Assembly: GCF_027942865.1 (NCBI RefSeq)
Contig: NC_134516.1
Coordinates: 25,627,322-25,691,321, forward strand
DNA: 64,000 bases
Direction of reading: 5' to 3'
Origin: Odontesthes bonariensis
Lineage: Eukaryota; Chordata; Actinopteri; Atheriniformes; Atherinopsidae
Each line of letters starts with the position of its first letter. Positions within the stretch are counted from its first letter, which is position 1. The position numbers and the translations under genes were made by a program. Of this stretch, positions 8,922 to 46,860 are shown in pieces. The notes below the pieces were generated by a model. That model had not been told where the DNA came from. It made no database searches and was given only the letters and a program-made list of their open reading frames with translations.

Positions 8922-9006
<85 letters not shown>

Positions 9007-9723
9007 GATCTATATAAAAGGTTGGACCTCCCAAAACCTGCTCTCCAGTCATCGACCCACACAAACCCCTGATCAAGGATCTGTTGATGCTACTGCTACA
9101 TGCTAAGTCATGGACAGAAACTGCGACATTTTTCAGTAAAACTGACCAACATGAATAACGGATTCATTCTCTGGAAAATCAATAACGGAGTGAAATAATG
9201 TTTTCAGTTCCACAATTGTGTGATGACAACAGCACAGAAATGTTATGACATCACAAAAGCAATATTCACAAGATGGAATGTCATAGATGACATCACAGCG
9301 ATGTCATCAGTGACATCAATGTGATGTTATCATAGATGACATCACTGTGATGTTATCATAGATGACATCACAAAATGATATCTCCAGAGTTTATAAATAG
9401 AACCCCCTCCTCAAGATGTATACTAGCTTGCCTGCTTGCTTGCCCGCTTGTTCGCCCGCTTAGTTGTAGCTTGCTCGCACGCTTGAGCTTGCCCGCTTGC
9501 TCGCCCGCTTGCTCGCCTGCTTGCTCGCCCGCATGGTTGCCCGCTTGAGCTCGCCCGCTTGGTTGCCCGCTTGCTCGCCCGCTTGTTCGCCTGCTTGAGC
9601 TCGCACGCTTTGCCGCTTGTTCGCCCGCTTGCTCGCTCGCTCGCTCACTACTTGTTAGTAATTTGTCCTAACAAGTAGACGTTACGTGATCGAGATTCAT
9701 GCTGCACAATCTTTCCAACAGTC
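6463..9723. repeat. Macrosatellite copy 3
   Basis: This copy has a handful of substitutions relative to copies 1 and 2, for example in the zf-RVT peptide, and the longest CTAT run (about 8919-9005). Its minisatellite arrangement is like that of copy 1, not copy 2. Confidence 0.9.
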
Positions 9724-24242: not shown

Positions 24243-24725
24243 TTATTTATATAGCCCTTTACAATAGCCAACTGGTACTCAAAGTACTTTACAACAGGAT
24301 AAAAACAACAATACATAAAACAAAACATAAAACACCATTCAGAAATTGTAAAAGTGCTGAAAGTGCTGCAGGGCATTAAAAGCCTTCCACAAGTGCAATA
24401 AAATGGATTGAATAAACTTTGTGTAAAATTACTATAATTAAAAAAGAGCAGATAGAATGGATGCATAGTGGCCCTAATCAGAGTTCGAACGCCAGTCTAA
24501 AAAGGTGGGTCTTAAACTTCGATTTAAAAAAGGCCGAGATCAGTGATGGTGCGGATGCCAGGGGGCAGTTTGTTCCACAGTCTATGGCAAAGGAACGATC
24601 ACCCCACTGTTTAGATCTCGACCTTGGGATCTCTAAAAGAAGTCTCTTTATTTCACTATGGTCACGCCATCTGCGCTTCGGAGAGGCACGGTCTCACTAT
24701 CTACACTTTAAAATCGAATGAGAGA
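24236..24725 (-). mobile_element. RTE-like (Rex3/Expander-type) retroposon 3' region
   Basis: CAAACTTTATTTATATAGCC next to the AATC run, then CAAAGTACTTTACAA, and later GGTCTTAAACTTCGATTTAA and GGGGGCAGTTTGTTCCACAG, are hallmarks of the 3' portion of fish RTE-type LINEs. Orientation is inferred from the short-repeat tail at the left. No reverse transcriptase frame remains. Confidence 0.55.
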
Positions 24726-26219
24726 CGGACAAAGTTCCTACTGGCTCCTGAAGCCGGTGTAGCGGAAGTGGTTCTGGAGGCAGCAGCGACACTTGTAATG
24801 TTCACAGCTTCTGTTTGACACCTCAGAGTTTATAAAACTCATACAACACTATCAGAATACATCGTCACCATAGGAGCCTTTATAAGTTCAGGCTTTCTAA
24901 AGTAACGGGACACACACACATCAGTCCAATCCAGATGTTTTTCTCATCTTTTCATAGTTTCCTGTTTTGCCTTCATAACTCAGATGGAATCAGTCAGTGA
25001 AAAACACAGCAGGCTGTGAGAGAAAGTAAAGGTGTTCACCAGACCAACCAAGGCTGAACCTGAGGGATGTATCACTGAAATTACTGAGCACATCATCAGA
25101 CAGGAGAAGAAGAAGCCCATTTTCACTGATATCAGCATCAGACAGCAGATCTGGAGGTGCTTTTCTTTCTACAGCTGGCCTTCACTCCTCTGTGTCTTCT
25201 CTCCAACCATCTTTGTCCCAACCATTGCATCTGTGGTGTTCAGCACATCTGCAGCATCAGGCCCGCTGGCTCCGTTCTGCTCGTCTTCTGCAGACGGAGC
25301 TTTTTCATGGCAGGAAACCATCCAGTGAGTCAGGATTCTGCAGGAACCACTGGAAGACTTTCACTTCCTCCTTTAGTTGAACGCTTCATCAAACTGACAT
25401 CGTGCAGTTCCTCTATTCGCCACCAGAGGGAGACACATCTCCATCAATGCAGAGTCCCGCTCAGTATTACTGACAGTACTTCACAGCCACTGAGAGGACA
25501 CATTTAAATCAGTAACATACAAAGAAATGATTTCTACATTTGAGCCAGGCTTCCACCTCCATATAAGACACACACTGTGTCCTCATACAACAAGCAGCTC
25601 TCCTGTCTGAGCTTCACATCTTTACAGTTAGCATCAGCACACACAGCATGTTGATGAAGATTCTCACTCATCCAGGTCATGGTAATCCTAAGAGCTCACA
25701 TCCTCTGGCCTAAAAGGCCTCTAGCAAAGAGCCAGATAAGACCAGAGCCACCCACTCTCCAGATAAAGTGCCTTATGAGCTGCTGAAGTTCTTCAAGTAA
25801 ATAAGTTTATATTAGTTTCTCTTTTGGTCAGAGGCTCTGGTGCTCTGGAGTTACACCAAGTGTTTCTGAATGTTAGCTGCAACACCTTTAAAACCTGTTT
25901 TATCTCCATGCAAACAACAGATAATCCTAACTGTCCTGTAGTTCGTAATGTGTCAGATCTCCATTTATTCCATCTCTTTCGCTGCAGTTTTAAAACTTCA
26001 TTACATTTGTTTTGTTGTTGAACCACCAAACCAGCTCAGAAGACACAGTATTTAATGGCTATCAGGTTGAGTGGAGGATGTAAATGAACAAGTGGTTCAC
26101 TTCAAGGCAAGTAAGAACATTCATCTTGAAAATCAACAGAAATCAGCTTGCTGCACTTTTGCATGAAAGGAGAACAAATCCAAGCCTGCAATTGTTATTA
26201 AGTTTTAAACAAGAGGCAC
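24726..26219. other. No gene recognised
   Basis: Several frames of 60-120 codons are open here but none resembles a known domain. AAGATTCTCACTCATCCAGG near 25658 resembles a fish interspersed repeat. The rest is unassigned. Confidence 0.45.
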
Positions 26220-26225
26220 AAGCCT

Positions 26226-26995
26226 GAAGCGTTGAAACAGACAATTATAGCAGATAATAAAACACTTGTGATCTGTGGTGATTTCAACATGGACCTCTTA
26301 AAGGTACATACTCCTAAACAAACTTGTGATTTCTTGGCTGCGTTATACGGTAGAGGCTTGTATCCACTGATCACAAAGCCGAGCAGAGGAGCCACAGATA
26401 GTGCAACATTAACTGACAACATTTTTACACATTCCTTGGACACTGGTATAAATAGTGGTTTGGTAATAAGTGATGTAAGTGATCATTTAGCTGTATTTGC
26501 AACATTTAATGATCAGCTACAGAGGAAGAAAACAGAAAAGCGTAGATATGAAAGGGTAAGGACTGTTAAAGCAATTAATGCTTCAGAAATGAGCTTTAAA
26601 ACAAGAGTGGAATGAGTTTCATACAGATGAAGTAAACACTGCAGACAATTCATTCTTCAACTGTTATTTATCTCTCTATGATAAACACTGTCCAACAGTT
26701 TTATGTTCACATAAGCATAGTTATGCTGAGAAACCTCGGATAACAAAGGCATTAAAAAATGCATGTGAGAAGAAAAATAAACTTTATGGAGACTTCATCA
26801 AAACTAGAACAGAGGTTGCTGAAAAACGCTGAGATGTACAAAAACAGGCTGACCAACATGTTGAGGCAATTAAAGAAGCAACATTATGATAAAATGTTAC
26901 AAATAAATCAAAATAATATGAAGCGCACATGGAACATCCTAAATAATGTAATGGTGAATAAGCCTTATCACCAGATCAACCTAAGTGTTTCATAA
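26226..26995 (+). mobile_element. LINE fragment: endonuclease C-terminus and linker (jockey/L2-like)
   Basis: The first frame (26232-26615) has VICGDFNMDLL and later VISDVSDHLAVFATF, the GDFN and SDH motifs of an AP-type LINE endonuclease. Farther on, YDKHCPTV, KPRITKALKNACEKKNKLY and YKNRLTNMLRQLKKQHYD match the linker before the reverse transcriptase. The frame changes at least twice, around 26610 and again near 26820, so this is a dead 5'-truncated copy. It ends at about 26995 without RT domain. Confidence 0.8.
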
Positions 26996-27045
26996 AGGAC
27001 AATAAGGTGTTTGGCAATCTGACTGAAGCGGCTGATGAATGTAAC

Positions 27046-27650
27046 TCAGTACAGCGGCTCGTGAATCCTCTGGTGCACGTTGAGCATCGTCATGCTCTTG
27101 AATTCCTTCCCGCAGTCGTCACATTTCATGAGGTCCCTCATTTCCACGAGGTTCTCCTGGTGCTCCTTCAGGGCGGACGCGTACTGGAAGTGTTTGCCGC
27201 AGTTTGAGCACCACACGGGTATCTTCAGCGACGACCCCTGTTGGTGGTCGGTGCCGCTCACTTCTGCTCTTGACTCTTTTCTCCAAAAGAAACGGGTGCT
27301 CTTCTTCTGGCAAATGGCGTAAATCTGGTGTCTTTTCAGCCGTGCATGTGTTTAAAATGCTTGTTGCAGTGGATGCAGTGATAGGGCCGATCGTCCGTGT
27401 GGCACTGTGTGTGTCTGTTCAGTGTTCTGACACAATCAAATGCTTTAGAGCAAACGGGGCACACTTTGAGGGCTTTCTTTGCCACGTTTTGCACAGGTGC
27501 AGATGGGCTCTCCTCAGACGTCCCAGGAAGTGTTTCTAAATGAGCTTCCTTTGTGTCGCTGTCACAGTTCTGAGCGGCAGCGCCTGCCAGAATCTGCTCC
27601 AGCGTCTTGCTCTGCAGTGTGTCCTTAAAACATCTGAGGAAACTGGACAA
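27046..27650 (-). pseudogene. C2H2 zinc-finger gene remnant
   Basis: On the minus strand the first part (27650-27336) has two fingers, CPVCSKAFDCVRTLNRHTQC and YHCIHCNKHFK, after an acidic spacer. That frame stops at about 27336, inside the second finger. Another frame (27261-27046) gives VWCSNCGKHFQYASALKEHQ and MKCDDCGKEFKSMTMLNVHQ. The fingers do not continue in one frame, and no KRAB, BTB or SCAN domain is visible. I take it as a broken fragment of a poly-zinc-finger gene, or an exon with draft errors. Confidence 0.6.
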
Positions 27651-27899
27651 GTGGAGGACAAAAGAAGAAGTGTCAGACCTAAAAAACTATCTACAGAAGA
27701 TGAGCAATATCTGAAAGTGATGTCCTTAAGAAAGAGGAAAAAATCCAGCAAAGACCTGACACAGGAGCTGAGAGATGCATCTGGACCTTCAGCTGATCCA
27801 TCGGCTGTTGGCCCGAGCCTCATCAGAGATGGGCTCCATGGAAGGGTGGCTGTCAAGAAGCCGTTCTTAAGGAAGGGAAACAGTAAGCGTTGTTTCTAA
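27640..27899 (+). mobile_element. Tc1/mariner transposase fragment
   Basis: The frame encodes RPKKLSTEDEQYLKVMSLR, KKSSKDLTQELRDASG and GLHGRVAVKKPFLRKGN, the bipartite helix-turn-helix and linker of a fish Tc1 transposase. The catalytic DDE part is absent. It abuts the zinc-finger remnant. Confidence 0.85.
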
Positions 27900-28394
27900 G
27901 TGCTTGTTAAAATGATTATTTAAGATAGTAATTAAGTGTTTTTTAGGCGATGTGAAAACCGTTTGCTGTGACTTTCAAATCTGCTTCAGAACCTGGACGT
28001 GTTTCTTCAGATAAACTCCTGACCAGCTGTGAAAAAGCAGTGAAAATGTCTGGCCTGTAGAAACTTTGTGATGTCAAACAAGATCAGAGATGACATCACT
28101 TGTGATGTCACTACAGTGATGACATCACAGCTTTGTGAAGGCTTCTGTTCTGTCTCTTCTGGTCTGTGGTTCCAACCACAGATTCTGGATGGAAGTGAAG
28201 TCCGGATTCCAGAATGTTGATTTGTGTTCTCTGTTAATCTCTGGACGACTTCAGCTGATTACTTCCTGTCACTGTCACGTTGGAAGGTCCACTTCTGCCA
28301 GTTTTTCAGCAGCCAGTATCATGTTTTCCACCAGCAGTGTTTCCCAAGACAGAATAATGTCAGTTTTTTTTTTAAATCTGACAGGTAACCAGGG
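27900..28394. other. Non-coding stretch with ATGACATCA palindromes
   Basis: At 28055-28135 GATGACATCAC and GTGATGTCAC repeat four to five times, as in the 3.23 kb macrosatellite unit. Nothing else was recognised. Confidence 0.5.
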
Positions 28395-28720
28395 AAGGAA
28401 GGACAAGAGGCAGGGAGGTGGTCAGCCACTGTGTGGCCTGGTGTGGGAATAATCACCTCAGCTGCTGATTTTAGGAGGAGCACCACTAAGCCAAACAGCG
28501 TCTCCATCCCAGGAGAAGAGGTGGCTGAGGAACACCTGGGAGTTTACCTGTTGCATATCTCTTATAAGTCTGTGGTGCAGAGTGCATCTTTCTTCAGCAC
28601 CATCTGCTGTGGCAGCAGCATCAGAGCCAGCGACTCAAAGAAACTGAGCAAACTGCTAAAGAAGGCTGGCTCTGACCTGGGGACTGCTTTGGAGCTGTGT
28701 TTGATGAGCACTCACTTCTT
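28395..28720 (+). mobile_element. LINE fragment: reverse transcriptase C-terminal part (L2/CR1-like)
   Basis: The reading frame includes DFRRSTTKPNSVSIPGEEV, EEHLGVYLL, then SYKSVVQSASFFSTICCG, SSIRASDSKKLSKLLKKAGS and LGTALEL. These match the thumb region at the end of fish L2/CR1-like RTs (usually HLGVYLDNKLDW and VCWGSSI). About 40 residues between the two blocks are missing. Confidence 0.7.
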
Positions 28721-28859
28721 TTTTTTTTTTTTAAACCCCTTGTCCTGTCCAGCATTATGGCAGCAGAATTGTAATCTGAATACCGTTTATGGCAAACACA
28801 TTTGCTATACCAAGGGTTGCTTTATGAATGTAAAGCTCCCCTTGATGCCCATCAACTCC

Positions 28860-29290
28860 TTATTTATTTATTTATTTTTGTTACAATACTTAACATGATG
28901 TGATAGTGTGATAGTGCCAAACCGGACCGGGGGACAGAGAGAGAGAGGGAGAGCGAAGAAGGGAAAAAAAGGAACAGAAATATGAAGAGACAAACATAGA
29001 AAACAATGAAAAATCAGACAACCAGCTGCTACACCTGTAAAAACAAAACTGAAGACAATCCAAGGCTTTTGTGGGGAATCCAGCCTTAGAGGCACCAGGA
29101 GCACCTGTAAGCAGACAAGCAGAGAACAAACACACAAACACAAACAAACAAAAAAGCACAAGCAGCAGCAATCACATGGCAACCTTCCGTCAAGGAATCG
29201 AATCCTGTTCCTCCGCTTAACAGGCGGATTCTAACCATTGACCAGCGAATTGTCAAGCATTTGCATGACTGAGAGCGTAAATTGACTGTG
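28860..29290. other. Low-complexity, AG-rich non-coding stretch
   Basis: Contains a TTTA run (28860-28878), a GA-rich tract (28935-28980) and CAAACA repeats (29130-29155). There is no gene. Confidence 0.5.
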
Positions 29291-29295
29291 GAAGG

Positions 29296-29367
29296 GGTTC
29301 CATGGTGTAAAGGTCAGCACTCTGGACTCTGAATCCAGTGATCTGAGTTGAAATCTCGGTGGAAACT
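29296..29367 (+). tRNA. tRNA-Gln(CTG)-like gene, decayed
   Basis: The sequence folds as a tRNA with anticodon loop CTCTGAA inside the CTGGA/TCCAG stem, which gives anticodon CTG, and it closely matches eukaryotic tRNA-Gln. One acceptor pair is lost (G2 opposite A71) and the T loop reads TTGAAAT instead of TTCAAAT, which damages the B-box. No T4 terminator follows nearby. Probably a pseudogene. Confidence 0.75.
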
Positions 29368-29678
29368 TCAGGTGTGTGCTGTCATGGTTGTGTTCTGGAA
29401 AGAAGATGAGTTGAGTAGGCTAGTCAGTTGTGAAATGACACCAGAGTGCACGATTCCAGATGAGAGGATCTATGGTATGTGACATCACACCTCTGTGTTG
29501 ATAGTTGAATCTTTTTTGGTTTCTTCTTGCATATTCATTTACGATTCTTCTATTTATCCATGCTCTCCCACAGGAGTGTGTTACAATCCCACTTCTGACT
29601 CAATTTGTTGAAACAAAATTTGGGAAAACTTACATCATTCTTTGGCTTCCGGAACACTAGTGAATAGACATGGTTCCA

Positions 29679-29751
29679 GTTTCCGTAGTGTAGTGGTTAT
29701 CACATTCGCCTAACACGCGAAAGGTCCTCAGTTCGAAACTGGGCGGAAACA
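29679..29751 (+). tRNA. tRNA-Val(AAC)
   Basis: A complete 73-nt tRNA: acceptor GTTTCCG pairs perfectly with CGGAAAC, the anticodon stem TTCGC/GCGAA encloses loop CTAACAC (anticodon AAC), and the B-box GTTCGAAAC is intact. The A-box region TAGTGTAGTGGTTA is standard. Only runs of three T follow in the first 40 bases, so the terminator is weak. It is likely functional or recently so. Confidence 0.93.
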
Positions 29752-30204
29752 TTACTTGCTCCTCCTTTATTTATTTCATCCTTGTGTGAAGATGTATGAC
29801 TGCACGTTAATGATAGCAACATCAACATATTCATAATTATGGATAGGAGGGGAGCCTCATCTGCTATTCTTGACATGTAAAGTACATTTTTGCAGGTTTT
29901 GAAAGGATTTTCTGATGCTATGGTGTGAAACGGACTTAGGCGAATCCCTAGCTGCTGAGCGAAAATGGCAGCTTTTATGAGTATTAAAGGAGACATATTT
30001 TACCTCTTTAAACAAGTTAGAATTGGTCTATGGCACTGATGCCATGGTAACGGCCCGCGGGCTGGAACCGGCCCGAATGGACATCACAACCGGCCCGGTT
30101 ACATCAGTGGTTGAGAAGTTTTTTTTTTTTTTAAATAAATAATACTATTATCAACAAATTTAAATCTACTTTTGTTTTTTGATCCTTAACCCCCTTGTGT
30201 CTAA

Positions 30205-30903
30205 GGCCCCATCCACACGTAGCCGGGTATCTGCTAAAACGAATATATTTTTCTACGTCTGGACCTGTCGTCCACATGAAAACGCATAAAAACGCATCGT
30301 AAAGGCATGTTTTTAAAAACTCCGGGCAAAGTGAAGATTTTTGAAAACTCCGTTTATGCAGCTGCGTGTAGACAGATAACCGGAGATTTGCGTTTTCGAA
30401 CGTCACAATATGCGCCAAAACAACAACAGATCTCCTTTAAAGTCTAAAGTGCGACCTTTGTTTACTGAAGAAGCATGGATGCCTTGAGAACTGTGGTGGT
30501 TATTATTGTGCAGGCGCTGTTTACTGCCTTGATTTTACACACCCAAGTCGTACTCCCAGAGGAATGGCGTGACAATTTCCACATGTCCCGGTCCTCACTC
30601 CTGTCGCTGTCGGAATTATGACGTCCTCATATCGAGGGGCAGTCCACTGTCATGCGATCACCTGTCCGTGTGCTCAAAAAAGTGGCGTGCACACTTTATT
30701 ATTTAGCTGACGAGGGCAGATTGCGCAAAACAGCAAATGCATTTGGGTTGTCAAGACAGGTGAAAACGCAAATGTTCGGTTATGTGTGGAAGGTGTTTTT
30801 TTCGAAAACGAGGTAATGTGGATACAGATTTTTTTATAAACGGAGGGGGGGAAACGTTCGGTTTTAAAAATACCCGGCTACGTGTGTACATAGTCTAGGG
30901 CCT
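30205..30903 (+). mobile_element. PIF/Harbinger element with transposase remnant
   Basis: Both ends carry inverted ACACGTAGCCGGGTAT. Inside, around 30545-30760, the frames encode PEEWRDNFHMSRSSLLSL, LRPHIEGQSTVMRSPVRV and KVACTLYYLADEGRLRKTAN, the N-terminal part of a HARBI1-type transposase, with a stop between the first two blocks. The catalytic core is missing, so it is a deleted, non-autonomous copy. Target duplication is unclear. Confidence 0.8.
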
Positions 30904-31618
30904 TTTCAGAGACTTTGAGGCAGTTGTCATCACCTTGACATTTTCAAGTATTTCAACTAACTGTAAACATCTATGCAAAAGTGACACATATGGTTGTATT
31001 CTGAGAAGCCTAACAAAAAACAATATGAGAGTGAAGTGAATGTAATACAAACAAGTTTTATTTCAATTGAGGGGAAACACAACTGTACAAAAAAACAAGT
31101 TTTAGAGGTCTTCAAACAGTGCAAGAAAACACACTATAAATATATCTAGCCAAGACTTTTGAAGGTTGAACCTTGTAAACAAAAGTGTTGGCTGCATAAA
31201 AGTAAAAAGTGCAGTCAGAAATGTTTTGTTGTTTTCACACAAACTCTAAAAAAGTTTTTGTAACTCCAGGCAGTGGCCCTCATTTATCAAACTTGCGTAA
31301 GACGAAAAACGTGCGTAGGTCGTGTGTACGTTCTTTTCTGCACAAAGGTTGGCATTTATCAAATCCATCGTGAGCGCAGGAAAGATGAAATCGCCACGAC
31401 AGGTCTGAGGCCGTGTACGCACTTTTCCATTTTGACTTGCGGTGACTGCAACACAGCAGCGTCACTAGTGCGTGCCTCAGGAGTCGCAACAAATCCCTTG
31501 GTTAAAATTACAGACTTATCACTTCAAAGAAGGCCCATGTTTTATTTGACTTCAACATAAATATAAACATAAACGCAAATTAAATAAATTAAACAAGTAC
31601 AACTCCGTATTTGGAAGA

Positions 31619-31954
31619 GTGATGGCTCATTATTCAACCGTGCACCCTCACACCGAACAAGAGAGGCGCTTTAACACTGCGCATACGCGCACGCGTGCCA
31701 CTGTGGAGAGCTGTATAGGGCTCCTAAAGCTGGATCTGTCTCTCGGCTGCGGGGGGAACCCTATACGCCCGAAAAGGTATGCAATATTATTATTGCATGC
31801 GGGGATCTCCATAACATTGCCCAAAAAAATGGAGTGCCATTTCCAGATGTACATCCAGAGGACCACGCACCCAGAGATCCCTTCCACCAGCCTGCACAGC
31901 CAAGAGCGCTCAGGAGGAGAGAGGAACTTATTCAGCGATTCTGACTTTCGGTAA
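31619..31954 (+). pseudogene. Harbinger transposase C-terminal fragment
   Basis: The peptide has EQERRFNTAHTRTRATVESC and IGLLKLDLSLGCGGNPIRPK, matching the (F/Y)N..H...R..VE..IG.LK signature near the end of HARBI1-like transposases, including the last catalytic Glu. The rest of the enzyme upstream is missing, so it cannot act. Confidence 0.8.
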
Positions 31955-32000
31955 GCATTCTGTTATTCAAGGAAAAAAGAAAGGAGAACAACGATTTCTT

Positions 32001-32655
32001 TCAGCATTTATTCTGTGACTTCAGTGTTTCATTTATGTCTTTCAATGTACTGTCAATAGATTGCATGGTGTGTGTTAAAGCCATCATCCACTTCACGATC
32101 TCTGTTTGTCTTTCTAGGACCTCTGTGGTTAACACGGCTGGCCGGTGTGACGCTGCAGACCGGGGGGCAGAGGCAGAGGCTTCGGTTGTTGACGGGGCCG
32201 CGTATTCGTTGCGCGGGTCAGGTTGCCCGGATGCCACTTCGGATTCATCTGTGAATGAAAAATATTAGTTTGATTAGGAACCTCATTTGTGTTGAAAATT
32301 AAAGCAACTGTGTTATTTAAACGTCTTGGGTGTGCAGTCATTCTTACCATTCTCGAGCTCTGACATGGGCGCATCAGTGTCAAGTTTCCCTGGCACGCCT
32401 GATGAGGACGTAGCTCCGATCAGGCCAGCCACCCTCTCCTCCAAGGCACTCAAATCCAAACCTGGATCCCCCCCCCCCCCGTTTGTGACATGCTGCGTCG
32501 GAGAGCTGCGACCTTCTTTTTTGGCCAATTTCATATCGGACCACTTCTTCCTGATCTTACTGGAGAAAAAGTAAAACGTCGCTCAATTTTAGATTTAATT
32601 TAATCTGGAGTTTATCACATTTTATTGACCATCACAGTAGGGGAAAATACATACC
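32001..32655 (-). pseudogene. Harbinger SANT/Myb-like accessory gene, partly deleted
   Basis: On the minus strand three exons can be traced. An exon end at 32655 (donor before GTATGT) gives VNSVGDVNRRPDE; a middle exon begins after CTTTTTCTCCAG at about 32556 with KIRKKWSDMKLAKKEG and ends at about 32347 at a GTAAGA donor; a last exon from about 32250 to 32001 ends ...IDSTLKDINETLKSQNKC. The pattern KKWxDMK and the coiled C-terminus are typical of the DNA-binding partner protein of Harbingers. The N-terminal half of the SANT domain is not recognisable. Confidence 0.7.
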
Positions 32656-32999
32656 TCGTCCGGTCTGCGATTTACATCGCCAACGCTGTTGACAGCCGTC
32701 CCAGCTGTCGACGCTGTTGGCAGCGTTTCTTTGCCGCCTTTCGTCTATCCATGTCGCAAACTCTAGAGGTGCGGCCTCTCAGCCCCCTTTTGTAGAAGGC
32801 GTGGTTAGGATCATTACGATGGATTTCGGCCGCCGGATTTATCAACAGCCGCTCTGTTTTACGATGGGATTGGTGTGGTACGCATGTTCTGTAAATCTCA
32901 CTTGAGCCTCTGCGTACGACGAGTTCTCCGCTCATATCTACGATGCTTTCTACGACGGCTTGATAAATGAGGGCCAGTGTCTCTGAGCGTTGAATACTA

Positions 33000-33495
33000 A
33001 TTAGATGGGTGTGTAACACCCCTGATTCCCCCCACCCCCCTGTCACTCTCCATGTGATAATTGTCTGTCACTGGCAGGACATTGCTGCCTTCCCCCACAT
33101 GCTGGCTGAATGGGGCGTGTTCTCACCTGTGAATAGCCACTCAATCACCTGGTACTTTACATGTGAATAGCAATGGGTGTGGCCTAGGAAGCTGCTGCAG
33201 TCTGCGACTACAGAAAATCCAAAGATTTCTGTTCACTCTCTTTAAAAAGGGCCAGCTATATAATTTATTTATAAAATATATATATTTGAAAACTAGAAGT
33301 TTCAAGGTTTTTAATGGTGTCACTTATATGTTTGAATGACAAAAACTCACAGAGTTACAGATGTGTTTTTGGAGATGTGTCAAAAATGCCCACCGGTGGG
33401 CATTAGACCCCAGAGTGTTAATGGTTTTAAGTATAATATTCATTTAATTAATTTTCACGTAATCCAACAGTTTGTCTCTCGCTCGTGCCGGTCTC
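33000..33495. other. Remainder of TTAA element and unassigned flank
   Basis: Up to 33417 this is the inner right part of the TTAA-flanked element. From 33422 to 33495 I see nothing. Confidence 0.4.
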
Positions 33496-33565
33496 AGTAC
33501 CTTGGACAGAGACCAGTGCACGCGCTGCAACAGAGACGGGCAGCGCGTGCACTGTCCAAGGTACT
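33496..33565. repeat. Imperfect hairpin upstream of hAT-like gene
   Basis: AGTACCTTGGACAG plus GTGCACGCGCTGC on the left (with a 6-nt bulge AGACCA) pair with the complementary 33540-33565, around an 11-nt loop. It ends 34 bp before the transposase ATG. Confidence 0.85.
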
Positions 33566-33598
33566 GACTGACGAGTCGCGCGACATCAGTCAGGAAGG

Positions 33599-34677
33599 AT
33601 GTTGTCTAAAAAGCGGAAGGTTGACTCTGAATGTAGAATCTTTCAGGAGAGATGGAAAGAAAAGTATTTCTTTTGGGAAGTGAGGGGCAAACCAGTGTGT
33701 TTAATTTGTTCGCAACAAGTGGCTGTGCCAAAGGAGTACAACATCAGACGACATTACGAGACCCATCAGGAGAAGTACAACGACTACACAGGGCAACGTA
33801 GGACACAAAAGCTAAACGAGCTAGCCTCATCCCTCCAAAAACAGCAAGCGGCTTTCTCGAAATGCCGAGAGACATATGAAGGTTCTTTTTAATTGTATAT
33901 CTTCTCAAATTCTTATTTTTACGTTAACTGCAGCTGTTTTCGAATGGGGATTTCTGTCTCGGCGCGCCTCCGTTAAGTTCTGATGGCGTTGCCCCTGGCA
34001 ACCAACAGCGTCTCCTGCCAACATGGCCGACCGCGACTCCTCATTCTCAATACTAACTTAACATTTTATTTCATGTTTATGGGCAGTGAAGGCGAGCTAT
34101 GTCATCGCATGGGAGATAGCCAAAGCTTCCAAGCCTTTCTCTGAGGGCGAATTCGTGAGGACCTGCATGATAAAGGCAGCCGAGCTAGTGTGTTCAGAAA
34201 ATCGACAAGCTCTTGCGAACATCAGCTTATCCCGACCAACAATGACCGAGAGAGTGGAAGAGCTCTCCAGAGACTTGCATAGCCAACTTAAAGAAAAGAT
34301 TAAATCCTTCGTCGCGTTCTCCATTGCTCTTGACGAGAGCACTGATGTGACTGATACGGCTCAGTTGGCGATATTTATTCGCGGAGTGGATGCTGCCTTA
34401 AATGTCACGGAGGAGTTTGTTTCCGTGGTACCCATGACAGAAACGACTACAGCTAACGACGTGTTTGTTAGCCTTGTCGGGGCCCTTGACAATCTGGAGG
34501 TGGACTGGAGTCGTGCTGTCAGTGTGGCTACGGATGGTGCACCTTCCATGGTAGGAAGAAAGGCCGGAGTTGTCGTCAAGTTGAGAGAAAAGGTACGAGA
34601 GGCTAACCCAGACCAGGTATTCTGGAACTTTCACTGCATTTTACACCAAGAGGCGTTGTGCAGCAAAAGTCTGAAGT
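33599..34677 (+). pseudogene. hAT-type transposase-derived gene (GTF2IRD2/ZBED-like), truncated
   Basis: The first exon starts at the ATG at 33599 (MLSKKRKVDSECRIFQERW), with a zinc-finger-like CLICSQQVAVPKEYNIRRHY ending H.xxxxH. After an intron (acceptor TTTATGGGCAG at about 34086), the second exon reads KASYVIAWEIAKASKPFSEG, CMIKAAELVC, LDESTDVTDTAQL, VATDGAPSMVGR and NFHCILHQEALCSKSLK. These are the hAT RNase-H-fold motifs including the DESTD and TDGAPSM blocks of GTF2IRD2-like proteins. After about 200 codons of exon 2 the homology stops at 34677, exactly where the tRNA-Ser array begins, so the C-terminal half (with the last catalytic Glu and dimerisation region) is lost. Confidence 0.85.
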
Positions 34678-34845
34678 TAACTTTTCGCAACCCTGAGTCA
34701 ATAGTGTTATCGTCAGAGATCAATCTGTGCAAGAGTTCATGTGATCAACGACACGTCTGCCCTCTGTTTTGTTTCATCAAATAGTCTAAGGAACTTGTGC
34801 TTCTTTCCAGGTTAACTTTTCGCAACCCTGAGTCAATAATGTTAT

Positions 34846-34927
34846 CGTTGTCGGCAGGACTCGAACCTACGCTGGGAGACCCAAATGGATTTCTAATCCA
34901 TCGCCTTAACCTCTCGGCCACGACAAC
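34846..34927 (-). tRNA. tRNA-Ser(AGA), array copy 1
   Basis: Acceptor GTTGTCG pairs with CGACAAC, loop TTAGAAA gives anticodon AGA, and the long variable arm (TGGGTCTCCCA) of serine tRNAs is present. B-box GGTTCGAGTCC is intact. It is the best preserved member. No T4 run follows on its strand for well over 100 nt. Confidence 0.92.
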
Positions 34928-35231
34928 TACGTACATGTTCGTTCATCTTTGACATTCAACGGTTACAAATCATCATTTTCATGAAAGAATTCAACTCCTG
35001 AGACAGACCTAAGTTATGGCGATCAAGAAAAAGCTTTTTTGTTTGTTTGTTAGAAATGGTCAATCTTTCAAAATGGGTCAGAGGAAGGAGCTGTCTCTTC
35101 AGAGATCAATCTGTGCAAGAGTTCATGTGATCAACGACACGTCTGCCCTCTGTTTTGTTTCATCAAATAGTCTAAGGAACTTGTGGTTCTTTCCAGGTTA
35201 ACTTTTCGCAACCCTGAGTCAGTAAAGTCAT

Positions 35232-35313
35232 CGTTGTCGGCAGGACCTGAACCTACGCGGGGAGACCCCAATGGATTTCAAATCCATCGCCTTAACCTCT
35301 CGGCCACGGCAAC
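35232..35313 (-). tRNA. tRNA-Ser(TGA), array copy 2
   Basis: Loop TTTGAAA gives anticodon TGA. The acceptor has one mismatch (C5 opposite A68) and the T loop reads TTCAGGT, which departs from the B-box consensus. Likely weakened. Confidence 0.85.
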
Positions 35314-35617
35314 GACATACACTTGTGTTCACCTTTGACATTCAAAGGTTCAAACTCATCATTTTCATGAAGGACTTCAACTCCTGAGACAGACCTAAGT
35401 TATGGCGATCAAGAAAAAGCTTTTTTGTTTTTTTGTTAGAAATGGTCAATCTTTCAAAATGGGTCAGAGGAAGGAGCTGTGTCTTCAGAGATCAATCTGT
35501 GCAGAAGTTCATGTGATCAACATGTTATCTGGCATTTGTTTTGTTGAATCAAATGGTCCAAGGAACTTGTGCTTCTTTCCAGGTTAACTTTAAGCAACCT
35601 TGAATCATTAATGTTAT

Positions 35618-35699
35618 CGTTGTCGGCAGGACTCGAACCTACGCGGGGAGACCCCAATGGATTTCTAAGCCATCACCTTACCCTCTCGGCCACGACAAC
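35618..35699 (-). tRNA. tRNA-Ser(AGA), array copy 3
   Basis: Acceptor and B-box (GGTTCGAGTCC) are intact and the anticodon is AGA, but the last pair of the anticodon stem is lost (C31 opposite T39) and the D arm carries changes. Confidence 0.85.
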
Positions 35700-36003
35700 G
35701 ACGTACATGTATGTTCATCTTTGACATTCAACGGTTACAAATCATCATTTTCATGAAGGACTTCCACTCCTGAGACAGACCTAAGTTATGGCGATCAAGA
35801 AAAAGCTTTTTTGTTTGTTTGTTAGAAATGGTCAATCTTTCAAAATGGGTCAGAGGAAGGAGCTGTCTCTTCAGAGATCAATCTGTGCAAGAGTTCATGT
35901 GATCAACGACACGTCTGCCCTCTGTTTTGTTTCATCAAATAGTCTAATGAACTTGTGGTTCTTTCCAGGTTAACTTTTCGCAACCCTGAGTCAATAATGT
36001 TAT

Positions 36004-36085
36004 CGTTATCGGCAGGATTTGAACCTACGCTGGGAGACCCCAATGGATTTCAAATCCATCGCCTTAACCTCTCGGCCACAGCAAC
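36004..36085 (-). tRNA. tRNA-Ser(TGA), array copy 4
   Basis: Anticodon TGA and B-box GGTTCAAATCC are good. The acceptor stem is weakened (GTTGCTG against CGATAAC: one mismatch, two wobble pairs). Confidence 0.85.
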
Positions 36086-36389
36086 GACATACACTTGTGT
36101 TCACCTTTGACATTCAAAGGTTAAAACTCATCATTTTCATGAAGGACTTCAACTCCTGAGACAGACCTAAGTTATGGCGATCAAGAAAAAGCTTTTTTGT
36201 TTGTTTGTTAGAAATGGTCAATCTTTCAAAATGGGTCAGAGGAAGGAGCTGTCTCTTCAGAGATCAATCTGTGCAAGAGTTCATGTGATCAACGACACGT
36301 CTGCCCTCTGTTTTGTTTCATCAAATAGTCTAATGAACTTGTGGTTCTTTCCAGGTTAACTTTTCGCAACCCTGAGTCAATAATGTTAT

Positions 36390-36471
36390 CATTGTCGGCA
36401 GGACCTGAACCTACGCGGGGAGACCCCAATGGATTTCAAATCCATCGCCTTAACCTCTCGGCCACGACAAC
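36390..36471 (-). tRNA. tRNA-Ser(TGA), array copy 5
   Basis: Anticodon TGA. The acceptor is intact except for a terminal G1-T72 wobble. The T loop is TTCAGGT as in copy 2. Confidence 0.85.
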
Positions 36472-36777
36472 GACATACACTTGTGTTCACCTTTGACATT
36501 CATCGGTTACAAATCATCATTTTCATGAAGGAATTCAACTCCTGAGACAGACCTAAGTTATGGCGATCAAGAAAAAGCTTTTTTGTTTGTTTGTTAGAAA
36601 TGGTCAATCTTTCAAAATGGGTCAGAGGAAGGAGCTGTGTCTTCAGAGATCAATCTGTGCAGAAGTTCATGTGATCAAAGACACATCTGCCCTCTGTTTT
36701 TTTTTTTCATCAAATGGTCAAAGAACTTGTGCTTCTTTCCAGCTTAACTTTTCGCAACCCTGAGTCAATAATGTTAT

Positions 36778-36859
36778 CGTTGTCGGCAGGATTTGAACCT
36801 ACGCGGGGAGACCCCAATGGATTTCTAATCCATCCCCTTAACCTCTCGGCCACGACATA
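36778..36859 (-). tRNA. tRNA-Ser(AGA), array copy 6, damaged 5' end
   Basis: Anticodon AGA and B-box GGTTCAAATCC are fine. A small deletion next to the 5' end breaks the first two acceptor pairs. Probably a pseudogene. Confidence 0.8.
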
Positions 36860-37157
36860 CATGTATGTTCATCTTTGACATTCAACGGTTACAAATCATC
36901 ATTTTCATGAAGGAATTCAACTCCTGAGACAGACGTAAGTTATGGCGATCAAGAAAAAGCTTTTTTGTTTGTTTGTTAGAAATGGTCAATCTTTCAAAAT
37001 GGGTCAGAGGAGGAAGCTGTGTCTTCAGAGATCAATCTGTGCAGGAGTTCATGTGATCAACATGTGATCTGGCCTTTGTTTTGTTTAATCAAATGGCCCA
37101 AGGAACTTGTGCTTCTTTCCAGGTTAACTTTTCGCAACCCTGAGTCAATAATGTTAT

Positions 37158-37239
37158 CGTTGTCGGCAGGACTCTAACCTACGCGGGGAGACCCCAATGG
37201 ATTTCAAATCCATCGCCTTAACCTCTTGGCCACGACAAC
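37158..37239 (-). tRNA. tRNA-Ser(TGA), array copy 7
   Basis: Acceptor intact and anticodon TGA, but the T loop reads TTAGAGT, so the B-box is disrupted, and the D arm has a change (CCAAGAGG). Confidence 0.82.
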
Positions 37240-37432
37240 GACATACACTTGTGTTCACCTTTGACATTCAACGGTTACAAATCATCATTTTCATGAAGGA
37301 CTTCAACTCCTGAGAGAGACCTAAGTTATGGCGATCAAGAAAAAGCTTTTTTGTTTGTTTGTTAGAAATGGTCAGTCTTCGAAATATGTGAGAGGAAGGA
37401 GTTGTGTCTTTAGAGATCAATCTGTGCAGGGG

Positions 37433-38525
37433 CCCGTTGCACAAAAGTAGGATTTAGACATCCAGGATGAATTACTTAGCCAGGTTCAAGGAATCCAAAA
37501 CATGGGCGCCCAGGCTTAGTTGGTTGCACAAAGGCCAATCCAGGATGAGCAGACACGGATTCATTAAGCCAGCTGAAAGCGATCCTGGATAAGTGCTGCA
37601 CACGGCTTTCTTAAATAGACCCCACGATCGATCATAGATTCACTGATTCACCATGGCAACAAGGGCGGCGCATTTCTCCCCAGCGGAGCAATAATTATTA
37701 ATGGAAGCATATGAAGAGGTGACGGAGAAAATAAAACAAAAAGGAAATACTGCCACAGTTAAAAAACAAAGGGAGCAAGCGTGGCAAACCATTGCTGACC
37801 TCCTGAATGCGTAAGTAGTGCACAAATCACACTCACCACTCCACTGAAATTATCACAATTAGGCAGTGTTCGAACTACGGGGGACTCGGGGGATCCGAGA
37901 CCCCCTGAAACTGACAAGAGACCCCCCTGAAAACATGATTTGGGAAATGTTGGGGGGTCTCTAAAATATTGGCAAAATGTGATTTCCCCTGATGAGTTAT
38001 GATTGCAGACGCGATGCGTGTGGAGGTGTGGAGCCTGTGTGCGTAATTGGCATAAAGCTGTGCTGTCCGCCGCGTATGATTCTGTATAGCTTCTCATGTG
38101 TTTGAGATCCGCGCTCTGAGTCAAGCGCAAGCAAGCAACCAAAATGGACATGGCAGCAACTTTTTATTAAGAATGTGCCCGCCCACACATTGCCTGTACT
38201 GTTTTAGCAGTGAAATAAAAAACGCAATTAAAGGACTTGCAAGCATCTTCATCTCCTTCCCTGGGCATAGAAGACTCTGTGACATCAAGTTCTACAGGAT
38301 TGCAGGTAAGAATTTTTTTTTTTAAATTACAGTTACAATTACAATGTTAACATTCAGAGTAAGATACTCATTGCATTGTATTACAGGTTTCCCCATTGTC
38401 ATTGGTGCAGTGGACTGCACAGTGATCCAAACACATGTGAACACTGAACAGAAACCTCTGCACACTGTTCCCATCTGTATTTATCTGCTCTCCTGTAGGG
38501 GGAGCTCAAGTACAAGCTCACATTG
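37433..38525 (+). mobile_element. PIF/Harbinger element, truncated (GGGCCCGTTGCAC family)
   Basis: The left end GGGCCCGTTGCACAAAAGTA is the TIR of a common fish Harbinger. A minus-of-type SANT domain remnant follows on the plus strand (about 37690-37815, MEAYEEVTEKIKQKGNTATV and REQAWQTIADLLN). Near 38200-38460 two blocks, GLASIFISFPGHRRLCDIKF and GFPIVIGAVDCTVIQ, are from a HARBI1-like transposase (GAVDCT holds the first catalytic Asp). The element is cut at its right by another Harbinger and has no right TIR. A stretch from about 37862 (CAGTGTTCGAACTACGGGGG) looks like a further nested insertion of unknown family. Confidence 0.75.
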
Positions 38526-40575: not shown

Positions 40576-42927
40576 AAGGTTCTGTGTGGGCGTGGCCTAA
40601 AGCCCATCTCTCTCTGACACCACTGTCTCTTAGATTTCCTCAAACATTTTCTGTTGTCGACTTTAGCAGAAAACACCTGAGCTGAAACAAGGTGGGGCGA
40701 GCAGTGGTAAAGCCCTGCTGCCCCCCCCCCCCCCCTTCATTCTTTACACGCTCAGCTGCAGGAGTTTGGATCAAACTGAGCATTTATTTTGCATTCTTTT
40801 CACTTAGTTTCTGTACGCTCTGACTTGTGTAAAGTTCCTCCTGAAGCAGCTCATCATGTGTTTTCCATCTGACCTCAGCCTGAGCTGTGTTAATGTCCCC
40901 TCCACTATCAGAAGTTCTCCACAGAGCAGGAACGGTTAAAGGATTTCAGCTAAAGCAGAAAAACACAGCTTCTCTACTTACAGAGCAGCTGCTGAACACT
41001 TGTTTCCATCGTTGTGTCTCTCACTCATTTGGCCAGTTTGAGCTTGTTGTTGAAGCCCCAAATAAAGCCCGCCCTCTTCCTGTGTGGGTCCCTGTGCTTT
41101 CTTCTTCTCTTCATACACCAGGGGGCAAAGTTTTTAAAGATACAAGCCATAAACCATTCATTCCACAAATATGTCCAAAGCTGAATGAAGATGTTGTAAG
41201 TAATCAGATCAGATAAATCATCTGCCTTTAACTGAGCATCTGGACGCACGGCTCGGGCTGCGAGCTGAAAGACAGCTGTGACTCAGAGCATCTGAGGGAA
41301 CTGAACCCATGAGGAGTCCAACCCCAGGCAGCGTCCCATCATCCTGAGCTGCTCCTTGTGAGCAGCGTTGTTGAACTTTAAAAGTGGTCTGCTCGTAGTT
41401 TCCACGTTCTCAGAGGCTCAGAGCTTTCAGCCGACAGCCTGAGCTGTTCAACTCCACACTGAAGGGCTGAATCCTAAAGTTTCTCTTTTCATTTTGGCTT
41501 GATAAATCCCAGCCTGCTCTGAGCTGAACAACCTGCCCTTCCTTTCCTAACGGCCATCAGCATCCACAGGAGCTGAAGCCCCTCCCTCTGCTTCCAGAAG
41601 CTGCTCTGCATCTGCCTGAAGCGCCCAATCACAGCTTCAGCCTCCTTTCTGAGCTGCTTCCATTCTTCTGTTGGGATGCTGAACTGCAGACTTTATTTCT
41701 TTAGGAGCTTTCATCCCTCATTCTGACAAACTAAAAGCTGCTCAGTACCAGTTTGAGCCATTAAATCAGAGAATGAAACTTTCCACCTTAAAGCTTTTCA
41801 CTCTTTGCTTTGGCCTCTAAAACCTGGAGACATTTAAACTCTTTGAGCAGCTCTCACAGGACTTGAACATATGATCTCCGAGTCCCAAAGCAGTTTATTG
41901 ACCCTCTGAGCGATGCCTCTGCTGCTTTGTGCTGCTTTCTTGGCACTTTTTACCTGAGACTGATGACCACAGACACTATCTTTTAGTCTTCCAACATGTT
42001 TCCTGTGAAGCAGCTTTGCTCATCAACTGTCTCTGGCTTGTTCAGCTGCTTGGTGTTCTGTCTCATGCTCTGTATCCCAATAAAGTCTCAGATTTGTTGG
42101 TTTCAAACTTTGAAGACTGAGAAAAATTGAGTGGAACCTGGAAAAGGCTTGAACTCAGTCCCTATGAAAAGAAAATGAAAAGAGAAAGTTTACGATTCAA
42201 CCTTTCAGTGTGTAGTTGATCCGTGTAGTTGTCTTATCCACCAGTGACCTCACATTTCCCCTGATGATCGAGGGATGAAATGCTTTAAACTTCATCCTCC
42301 TTTTCCTCCAGTTTGTTCCTGCTCTACATCCGAGACATCTCCTCTTCAGCTCATCCAGATTTGGGGTATTTTTCCAGCCATTTCTTGGGCTTTTGTGAAG
42401 CTCAGTTAGCTGCACCAACAGGTGAACAACTTTCCCGTTGCTACGGTTACACATCATGACAGATGTGAAAAACTACCAGAGTGACCAGCAGAGGTCCTTC
42501 CAGCAGCATCCACACCAGCTCAGAAACATGTGTCAGAAGTCTCTGTTTTCACAGAGAAAATCTGAAGAAGATGCAAAGAATTCTGGAATAATGGTGCTGA
42601 CCTGGTTCGGTTCCACCTGAACCCAAGACATTTCATCCGGAGCCAAAAGCTTCCATCCAATATGTATCATCAATCTACATTTATAAATAACTAAAGCTGA
42701 CATATGAGTTTATTATTTTATTTTTTTAACTAGAGTTATATTACGGTGGAATTCTGCAGTTAAAGAAAGAGGAAAACCTCCATTTTACCAGGAGTTACAG
42801 CAGATTAAATCTATAAGTTAGTGTAAATATAAATATATATGGTGCACTGGAGGAACCTCAGGTATTCTGCAGAAGCACAGGAGTTCATCCCCTTCAGATC
42901 ATGAATATCTGACGTTGATTCCTGCTT
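40576..42927. other. No gene recognised
   Basis: Apart from a C-run at 40723-40735, this 2.3 kb looks like ordinary non-repetitive intergenic DNA. Frames up to 109 codons are open but match nothing I know. Confidence 0.5.
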
Positions 42928-42931
42928 TTAA

Positions 42932-43587
42932 AGGATAAGATCGGTTTTTTGACATTGGGCCCTTGATTTCACATTATAACATGATGTTCTACTCACCCCT
43001 GCTTGTTGTTGAACATTTGGAGCTGTTCCGAAGATATTCGCGAGCCGTCTGGCTGCTCTCTTGAGATATTCGGCCATGAAACGGTTTCCTATGGGCAAGC
43101 TTATACGGCCACAAACTATGCTGTTTATAATTTATTAATTACTGTACACTAGCACTGATAACGTGGAGGTGCGTCGCTTACTTAAAAAAATCCGGGTTAT
43201 TGTAATTTTGATTTTTTTTGTTGTAAAGTGGGTGTTACTGACGTCATCGTCGTGCTACTACCACAGACAGCCCACAGACCTGCTGTCTATTTATTCATTC
43301 GGCTAAAATTCAAAATTAGTAACCCGGATTTTTTTAAGTAAGCGACGCACCTCCACGTTATCAGTGCTAGTGTAGAGTAATTAATAAATTATAAACAGCA
43401 TAGTTTGTGCCTGTATAAGCTTGCCCATAGGAAACCGTTTCATGGCCGAATATCTCAAGAGAGCAGCCAGACGCCTCTCGAATATCTTCGGAACAGCTCC
43501 AAATGACCAACAACAAGCAGGGGTGAGTAGAACATCATGTTATAATGTGAAATCAAGGGCCCAATGTCAAAAAACCGGTCTTATCCT
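42932..43587. mobile_element. 656-bp palindromic element with ~270-bp TIRs and TTAA duplication
   Basis: The left arm (42932-about 43203) is almost the exact complement of the right arm (about 43316-43587), around a ~110-bp centre. It starts AGGATAAGATCGGTTTTTTG and is flanked by TTAA (42928-42931, 43588-43591). No coding sequence. Its arm-plus-centre recurs at 22211-22380. TTAA duplication suits piggyBac or Kolobok; the family is inferred. Confidence 0.85.
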
Positions 43588-43591
43588 TTAA

Positions 43592-45581
43592 AAGAATCAA
43601 TGAGAAATCCCCAGTGAGACGACACTGCCACCAGGAGGTCAGATTGGAACATTACACTATTGTTTGGATCCAGCACTGTGTTCTTCAACAACCTTTTACA
43701 GATCATTACGGAGGTGGAAAAAGTGAACACAAACTACTGAAAAACACTGAAGCACAGAAGCAGCGCTCAGTGTGCTTTGGGAGCAGGAACCCTAGAAAGA
43801 CTTCTGGGGACTGAGGGGATTTTCCTCATTTTTACGTCCCTTCATTCATTTGCCTTTTTGAAGCACTTGTTATTACTTCTTTGAATTAGCTGATGTGACA
43901 ATTCTTCATGCTACTTCCTGCTTTTGATTAGTTTCAGGTGTAGTCTGACTAAGAGGAGAGAATATTGCAAAACAAGAAACTGCAGCATTGATCAGACACG
44001 GCTGGATCTCAACAGGAAACAGTCCCTGAGAACCAGATCTAACGTGTGACTTCCACTGTGAGTCAGCTCAGTTACAAACTGGGTTTAACTTCTGAGGTTG
44101 GTCTCTGACTGAGGGACTGTCTCTGTCCCGCTAACAGCCCCCCCGGCTGGCTCGCCATGTTTCGCCACATATACACAACATGACGGGGTTCATTCGGGGG
44201 AGGTGACTTCACTGATGACCATCTGCATACAGGAAGACAGTCCTGCGTAACATTCAGTCGCTACAGCGACTGTCTTGCATTTCTGGTGGCTACTTCCTGT
44301 TCAGCCAGGACCGTAGCGCCAGTCGCTAACACACAAAAGTCACCGCTGATCACATCTTTAGGCCAAAGTGGGATTTGTCAGTGAGGTCCTCCCACTGTGA
44401 GCGACAGAAAGCGCTTTCTAAGAAACTCTTAAGGACATCATAGCTGTGGGGACGTAGTTACCACAAGAGCACAATACAACTCCAAGTCTGTGCTGAACAT
44501 TTTCCACTGAAATGCTCAGGGTACGCCAAACACAGTCAGCTTAAAACTAAAGGGAACAAAAACAGCCTGAAGCAGGTTTAAATGATCAGCGTTTCAGTTT
44601 GTAGATACAATCCAATAAAGTATAAGGGTGTCGTGTGCACACTGCCACCGGGTGTTCTGGGTAAGTTGTGCAGCCGTCGGGGCAGAAGAAGAAGAAGAAG
44701 AAGAAGAAGAGTTGTGGACTAAAACAACGTGAGCAGCGCGACAGAGTATCTGAGATTACAGCAGAATGTCTGTTTGGTAAATCTGCTCAGTACCTGATTG
44801 TGAGAGTAACTGAGCAGTTGTAGAAGCAACAAACAGATCAGTTCAGTTTTCTCGTGTTAAACGGTTTAATTCAAAGTACCGTTAGCCTACTTAGCTGCCT
44901 TTTCCCTCGTTTGGACTAAAATGCGTTCACACATCTGTTTCCAACACAACAGACATTTGAAAGAGTTTCACAGCTTGAAGTTGAGCCTCGTGCCCTTTTA
45001 GTGTTGGAACAGCCTTAACTTTCAGCTTCAGCCATGAGCATCATACAGCTGTCTGGGAAGTACAGGGAACAACTCCAAACCTTTTTCAGACTGCGTTAAA
45101 GATTTCTGGGTCTTTGGGGAAGATGATAAGGGTCAACTTTCCCTCGTAACCAAACACACATTTTCTTCAAAAATATCTGTGTAGCAAGAACATGAGAAGC
45201 ATGAGAAAAGTTAACATTGACCTTTAATGAAATGCAGAACAATGAAATACAGACGAGTGTAAAGCTCGACTTCACATCAAACTGAAATGATATATTGCTT
45301 CTTCAGATGTTTACAGAAATACCGGTTTGCTGGTGCAAAGCTACTTTGTGGATCTTAACTTTAAAGCAATCCCAACAAATTATAAAGCACTTTCAATGGT
45401 TCTTCAAACATGTGCTCCCCACAGAACATTCAGAACTAAAGTCCTGACAAGAGAAGGTGGTAATCCACAAAGAAGATTTTTAATCTGAACAAAGGCAAGG
45501 CTTCTGATTGGTAGTTCCTGTTGCTGCTCCCAGGTGAATGTTTGCTTATCTGCCGTAAAAATTGTTGTTGATTTATGCCAA
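43592..45581. other. No gene recognised; GAA microsatellite
   Basis: A (GAA)n run lies at 44686-44711. AGTCGCTACAGCGACTG (about 44257) is a short palindrome. The part next to 45581 is downstream of the zinc-finger stop and is probably its 3' UTR. Confidence 0.45.
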
Positions 45582-46448: not shown

Positions 46449-46860
46449 CTGCAATGACAGAGAGGAAGAAGACTTAGATCCTTTTGAAGTTCACACAAAA
46501 GATTTCTCTAAGCTAACCTACGCTAACCAACATATTCTAACTGGACCTGGACAGACCGAGCCACACAGGTCTCAATATCTCAGATCAAACGTGAAAGCTG
46601 AGGGTGCGTTTATAAGTGCCCTCAGCTATCAGCACTGTGCTCTGATGTGTTCTGCACACGTTCAGCTTTTTAAGCAGTAAACTCTGGATTTTTGGTCTTT
46701 TACTAATTCTTTTTGTCATGATGAAACTCTGAATAGGAACTTGAGCTATGTGTTTTGTGTTTTATGATCATCTTCAGACAATCTTAAATCACTGCAACTC
46801 GAAAAAGGAAATCATCCTACTCTCTGATTCAGGAAAAATATTAAACAGCTGATGGGTGAG
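46449..46860. other. Putative intron of the zinc-finger gene, nothing recognised
   Basis: This follows the acceptor (on the minus strand, upstream). A GAGGAAGAAG tract lies next to it. There is no further exon that I can support. Confidence 0.4.

Follow-up and report, generated by a model that had tools for sequence, protein, structure and literature searches.

Genomic Organization of the tRNA-Ser Array

Seven tRNA-Ser genes were predicted by ARAGORN on the minus strand at positions 34846–37240 of a 64,000-nucleotide stretch of the Odontesthes bonariensis genome (positions 25627322–25691321 of contig NC_134516.1, hereafter C16), which we call the window; the prediction is unchanged under the standard code. 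Their anticodons are, in coordinate order, AGA, TGA, AGA, TGA, TGA, AGA, and TGA, and this bears out the initial annotation as to the count, the coordinates, and the assignment of AGA to copies 1, 3, and 6 and of TGA to copies 2, 4, 5, and 7. All seven copies pass the tRNA model of Rfam with 37.4–58.7 bits (gathering score 29), and both the model and ARAGORN recognize the complete type II tRNA-Ser fold with a long variable arm in the window copies.

The array is far beyond chance, since Tandem Repeats Finder reports a repeat of period 386 bp with 7.0 copies, 91% matches, and a score of 4540. The start-to-start distance of the tRNAs is 386 bp four times, then 388 and 380 bp. The tRNA and the spacer are both common to the units, which are 89–97% identical in pairwise comparisons over their whole length, as expected of true tandem duplication; the description of the repeats as near-perfect was therefore too strong. 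The seven genes share one orientation, all being on the minus strand, and with spacings of about 386 bp they form a tDNA cluster as defined by Bermudez-Santana et al. (2010; PMC2888827), with adjacent tDNAs less than 1000 nt apart. The recurrence of diverged copies of the array at 16 further loci of this contig makes an assembly artefact unlikely, while the number of units would be that of the assembly as it stands. The features of the locus are collected in Table 1.

Table 1. The tRNA-Ser array and its surroundings, in positions of the window
Feature	Positions	Strand	Evidence
Stretch common, with gaps, to other array-bearing blocks of C16; ends are breakpoints of the window's lineage	24721..38421		block comparison
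tRNA-Gln (CTG) and tRNA-Val (AAC), in the same block as the array	29295..29751	+	ARAGORN, Rfam
Remnant taken to be transposase-like, cut into by the left edge of the array	33572..34676	+	zf-C2H2_12 at 33572–33892; weak DUF4371 in 34062–34784, below the Pfam cut-off
Truncated eighth copy: 37 bp of the sequence immediately 3' of the tRNA, after which the next unit follows abruptly	34676..34712	-	84–97% to the seven units
Tandem array, seven full units, period about 386 bp	34713..37428	-	Tandem Repeats Finder
Copy 1, tRNA-Ser (AGA); free of detected defects; both bases of one variable-arm pair replaced (U-A for G-C)	34846..34927	-	ARAGORN, Rfam
Copy 2, tRNA-Ser (TGA); acceptor mismatch 5-68; T-loop A58 to G	35232..35313	-	ARAGORN, Rfam
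Copy 3, tRNA-Ser (AGA); anticodon-stem mismatch 31-39	35618..35699	-	ARAGORN, Rfam
Copy 4, tRNA-Ser (TGA); acceptor mismatch 5-68 and a variable-arm mismatch	36004..36085	-	ARAGORN, Rfam
Copy 5, tRNA-Ser (TGA); T-loop A58 to G, pairs unbroken	36390..36471	-	ARAGORN, Rfam
Copy 6, tRNA-Ser (AGA); 6-bp deletion across the 5' end; two acceptor pairs and pair 10-25 broken	36778..36859	-	ARAGORN, Rfam
Copy 7, tRNA-Ser (TGA); T-loop C56 to A (B box), pairs unbroken	37158..37239	-	ARAGORN, Rfam

Several other repeats lie in the window. Its first 11,500 positions (1–11500) hold about four tandem copies of a unit of approximately 3.2 kb with short repeats of its own, and a reading frame in the first copy matches zf-RVT, the reverse-transcriptase zinc-binding domain. 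Between 11916 and 21755, blocks of a 39-bp minisatellite, open in several frames, recur every 2.3–2.8 kb or so. An inverted repeat at 42918–43601 has 282-nt arms, 96% complementary and 120 nt apart, and an open reading frame on the minus strand at 45582–46490 contains an 84-bp repeat with numerous C2H2 zinc fingers.

Related Arrays on the Same Contig

A search of the species' own 945-Mb assembly (187 contigs) with one 386-bp unit yielded at least 252 matches; among the matches listed, which occupy both strands, all fall within 24.80–35.78 Mb of C16. An exact search with one 24-mer of the spacer returned no match in prokaryote contigs and none in viral contigs. For comparison, we took 17 stretches covering 16 further array loci, i.e., with the window, 18 sequence pieces from 17 loci. 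A profile of the seven window units gave 243 hits in these pieces, of which 201 were retained as full units (at least 330 of 386 columns) and 42 shorter ones were dropped.

The anticodons of the 201 full units are AGA (109), TGA (83), ATT (2), ACA (2), and GGA (1), with a gap at this place in four units. Both main anticodons occur together in 15 of the 18 pieces (14 of the 17 loci, the window included), and the readable units of L020, L021, and L026 are all AGA. In some units of L015, L023, L026, and L027, the anticodon is either altered to ATT, ACA, or GGA or absent owing to a deletion that runs through its arm.

The similarity extends beyond the arrays. The flank of the window array is matched on both sides in 9 of the 17 other pieces, on the left side alone in four (L018, L020, L021, L024), and on the right side alone in one (L026); for L019, L022, and L023, the last of which adjoins L024, no flank match was found at the thresholds used. 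The flanks retrieved for this comparison were short. In seven loci taken with wider surroundings, the segments in common with the window match it at about 91–99%. A mobile element carrying the array, with its ends at 24721 and 38421, was considered and rejected: since the blocks, compared with one another, continue past both positions, the surroundings of the array are, as judged by these alignments, duplicated chromosome blocks rather than copies of one element with those ends.

Two segments, 30208–30893 and 31275–32975, are found in the window and in block J17 and are missing from six blocks (J14, J25, J27, J13, J24, J20). Each is bounded by inverted repeats, and they are likely later transposon insertions. 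At the left edge of the array, the remnant with zf-C2H2_12 and weak DUF4371 similarity is what we take to be a transposase-like sequence. The wobble base of the neighboring tRNAs also varies between blocks (the window, L014, L033, and the others fetched): Gln copies carry CTG (9) or TTG (3), Val copies AAC (7) or CAC (5), and Thr copies in the same blocks AGT (2) or GGT (1). The Gln copy of the window has a changed T-loop base.

Inheritance of the Anticodon

The arrays closest to that of the window, L012 and L017, match it unit by unit. Six of the seven window units have a partner in one of these sister arrays at 0–0.8% divergence, and the anticodon is the same in each case. The nearest relatives of the seventh, copy 6, are AGA units at 4.5%, at a place where the sisters hold one and two extra AGA units.

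The same tendency holds over all arrays. The nearest neighbor in another array bears the same anticodon in 45/45 cases at a flank divergence below 0.5%, in 18/21 at 0.5–1%, and in 11/14 at 1–2%; the figures are 30/41 at 2–3%, 35/65 at 3–5%, and 2/6 above. Among pairs of units, which are non-independent as whole blocks have been duplicated, the anticodon differs in 0/40 pairs with identical flanks, 3/48 pairs below 1%, 8/56 at 1–2%, and 376/864 at 2–4%; above 4% it differs in about half of the pairs, like in random ones (0.493). Thus, the anticodon is inherited with its unit at short divergence. Anticodon switching inside the array, which the initial annotation had proposed, is as a repeated event not supported by these counts, neither in the pairs with identical flanks nor among the nearest neighbors below 0.5%.

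The three exceptions below 1% all involve a single unit of L022 (C16:31702873), whose tRNA body differs by 6–10% from those of its partners and carries the opposite anticodon. Since the rest of the body differs as well, this unit would fit a replaced tract better than one replaced base.

Shuffling of Variants Between Units

Linkage between common variants in 192 units decays within about 40–80 bp. In classes that start at 5 bp, below which no class was computable, mean r2 is 0.61 at 5–15 bp, 0.25 at 15–40 bp, 0.06 at 40–80 bp, and 0.02 beyond 80 bp. Position 34 behaves like other sites beyond 40 bp; at 15–40 bp its values are 0.00–0.04 versus the mean of 0.25, a comparison of only three pairs. 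In the window itself, 119 of 325 site pairs fail the four-gamete test, and the anticodon requires one change on the best trees of the block from -59 to +33 and two to three changes on the trees of other blocks. The decay is what exchange over short tracts would predict, and that explanation is partly supported. The suggestion of conversion between two isoacceptors therefore survives in one part: exchange over short tracts agrees with the linkage decay and with the L022 unit, while repeated switching does not follow.

Five sites of the 5' flank, between -18 and -3, separate the AGA from the TGA units of the window. An anticodon tied to one of two haplotypes was nonetheless rejected genome-wide (the best mutual information with the 5' flank is 0.08 bit), the association being local to the window.

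As for the order of the anticodons, the two kinds are interspersed in the window, as had been noted, but the claim that they alternate does not hold against chance: 7 of the 35 possible orders of three AGA and four TGA units have as few equal neighbors. A dimeric AGA-TGA unit has no support here either, with a lag-2 divergence of 27.6 versus a mean of 27.9. With all arrays pooled, 92 of 178 neighbors are equal versus 100.9 expected (P 0.064); in this test, as in the genome-wide linkage table, the four ATT/ACA units were counted as A, and the gapped and GGA units were excluded. Near-perfect alternation of TGA and AGA was seen in the 17 units of L019 (C16:28890954–28897464), with one equal neighbor versus 7.5 expected (P 0.0006), this being one of three arrays picked for single tests, of which L018 and L013 were not significant. 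The L019 pattern has perhaps arisen from an amplified two-unit repeat; no lag-2 signal was found in its flank divergence.

Constraint and Damage in the tRNA Body

If the units supplied the cell with tRNA, their tRNA part should be more conserved than the spacer, and this is not what was found. In the window, diversity is 0.072 in the tRNA and 0.073 in the spacer (ratio 0.99, 0.52–1.63), and over the 201 units the ratio is 0.93 (95% range 0.60–1.37).

Certain bases and pairs are universal in tRNAs. Accordingly, each copy was scored against the inferred unmutated body, a defect being a broken pair or a changed universal base. Six of the seven window copies are defective by the full rule and four of the seven by broken pairs alone; copy 1 (AGA) alone is clean. 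When equally many changes were placed at random, zero to two copies stayed clean in 96% of trials. One pair is changed on both sides among the seven copies, a number reached by 140 of 500 shuffles. Among the 201 units, 58 are defect-free, and the 182 ungapped AGA/TGA copies comprise 58 defect-free ones versus 55.7 (46–65) under random mutation, with 220 defects in total versus 222 (201–244).

The allele spectrum gives a different hint. Defective alleles make up 55/89 of the rarer ones, close to the 150/243 of possible single substitutions, while the four commonest alleles (at least 25 copies), including the wobble base, are all structure-neutral (0/4 defective versus 55/89; Fisher p 0.025), with the threshold of 25 copies picked post hoc and p = 0.42 and 0.15 at 10 and 20 copies. 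This hints at past or weak selection on the arrays.

A functional tRNA gene is expected to be followed soon by a Pol III terminator, a run of four or more T. No such run was found within 158 nt downstream of any of the seven window copies, nor was T4 found within 50 nt of any of the 201 units; six units have T4 at 96 nt. In a partial control on the seven wider loci, T4 lies within 28 nt of 4/4 tRNA-Asp copies, and within 60 nt of 0/11 Gln, 0/11 Val, and 0/3 Thr copies. Since the Gln, Val, and Thr copies of these blocks lack T4 too, its absence by itself is no proof of death and may mean little. CpG decay was also considered and proved uninformative: relative to the local consensus, CpG transitions account for 4 of the 24 changes in the tRNA and for 6 of the 93 in the flanks.

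The name of tRNA factory thus hardly suits a locus whose tRNA part has no visible constraint, whose copies are defective in six cases out of seven, and which lacks T4 nearby; judged from the DNA, it is presumably not expressed. The arrays appear to be mostly relics, of which a minority of units could still work.

Comparison with Known tRNA Clusters

Arrays of this kind are already known, and the view that mixed anticodons are unusual does not stand: the figure 4 legend of PMC2888827, published in 2010, describes a cluster of Arg(TCT) with Thr(AGT or TGT), pseudogenes included. According to the same source, clustered tDNAs constitute 65% in zebrafish and 87% in stickleback. The heterogeneous clusters of zebrafish and other eukaryotes resemble the window array in their parallel tandem tDNAs, in the mixture of genes with pseudogenes, and in the A/T mixture at the wobble base, and differ from it in that the window array holds one amino acid only, in a 386-bp unit of one tRNA (PMC2888827).

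Very many tRNA copies on one chromosome are likewise known from chromosome 4 of zebrafish, which holds 60% of the predicted tRNA genes and whose large clusters show near-complete CpG methylation in early embryos (PMC11574265). There, too, tRNAs that are almost the same except for position 34 are grouped (Gln-CTG/TTG, Thr-AGT/TGT/CGT; PMC11574265, PMC11417395), and one study merged such tRNAs (Gln-CTG/TTG; PMC11417395). Isoacceptor shifts mostly alter the first anticodon base (PMC3923123, PMC3868979), and shallow remolding has been interpreted as mostly pseudogenes (PMC4981973). Both traits have their likeness here, in a wobble-base change between isoacceptors in copies many of which are degenerate; in contrast, shift and remolding are described as changes at orthologous loci or in gene trees, whereas in the C16 arrays an old variant has apparently been passed between tandem units (PMC3923123, PMC4981973, PMC3868979). 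The Ser/Tyr cluster of Arabidopsis also consists of tandem tRNA-Ser repeats grown by tandem duplication and is silent in most tissues; unlike the C16 arrays, it is a plant cluster of mixed Ser/Tyr units, with expression shown in root tips (PMC12308677). A literature search of limited depth turned up no report of AGA and TGA tRNA-Ser genes arrayed in tandem in a fish, which is not proof of absence.

Evolutionary History of the Arrays

The simplest history assumes a single old A/T difference at position 34 that travelled with duplicated blocks and units and was redistributed by exchange over short tracts. We consider it highly probable that the locus is a block-copied tandem tRNA-Ser array with such an old variant, now mainly a relic. 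One tRNA with its spacer would have been amplified head to tail, and the array, mostly within a larger block, would have been copied many times along one 11-Mb stretch of C16. Both anticodons, with A or T at the wobble position, were probably present in the array family before the block copying. They would then have been spread and shuffled as blocks were duplicated, as units were gained or lost, and as units exchanged short tracts, for which gene conversion would be a plausible mechanism. Seryl-tRNA synthetase does not read the anticodon; hence, either wobble base was presumably tolerated. After a putative earlier functional phase, most copies now seem to drift with no visible constraint, and many are broken; for this reason the array would be mainly a relic and not a working supply.

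Point mutations at position 34 arising repeatedly inside the array would account for an anticodon nearly unlinked to other common sites (r2 0–0.10), and the wobble base indeed varies in the Gln, Val, and Thr copies of the same blocks as well. Low linkage beyond 40 bp is, however, general in the array units, and such mutations should have left differing anticodons among the closest pairs, where they are absent at identical flanks and, below 1%, are confined to the three pairs that share the L022 unit with its diverged tRNA; recurrent switching is thus very improbable. That the units never were tRNA genes, but a tRNA-derived SINE or a satellite, has scarcely any probability. Tandem arrangement, high copy number, and frequent degeneration would suit such an origin, but the type II tRNA-Ser fold is complete down to the long variable arm, the window has, among the matches listed, no dispersed single copy besides the 37-bp copy at the edge, and the left-hand block sequence recurs at L020, the only locus where just one full unit was found.

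More weight, though not much, goes to readings in which the arrays serve or have served a function. The arrays might be a reserve that is kept silent yet remains usable, with transcription confined to oocytes or early embryos like that of the chromosome-4 arrays of zebrafish and with mixed anticodons that decode both kinds of UCN codon; this would agree with the defect-free units and with the Arabidopsis cluster that is active in root tips (PMC12308677). Against it stand the equal variability of tRNA part and spacer, a number of defects such as random mutation would give, the lack of T4 within 50 nt in all units, and the nearly full CpG methylation of tRNA genes in the large zebrafish clusters in early embryos (PMC11574265); we regard it as quite unlikely. 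Also unlikely, if a shade less so, is that the wobble base was a variant kept in balance and exchanged freely within a tRNA pool spanning many arrays, in which the body was selected and both anticodons were tolerated or favored while the arrays were active, so that one locus supplied two isoacceptors and the present arrays are the fading record; the structure-neutral commonest alleles and the wobble variation of the Gln, Val, and Thr copies hint in this direction.

Under the preferred history of a block-copied array that is now mainly a relic, the C16 loci would show, in nature, how a variant anticodon spreads through tandem tRNA arrays, namely, with its unit over short divergence and via short exchanges over longer times. 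They also call for caution, as counts of tRNA genes by anticodon in such genomes may mostly be counts of drifting copies.
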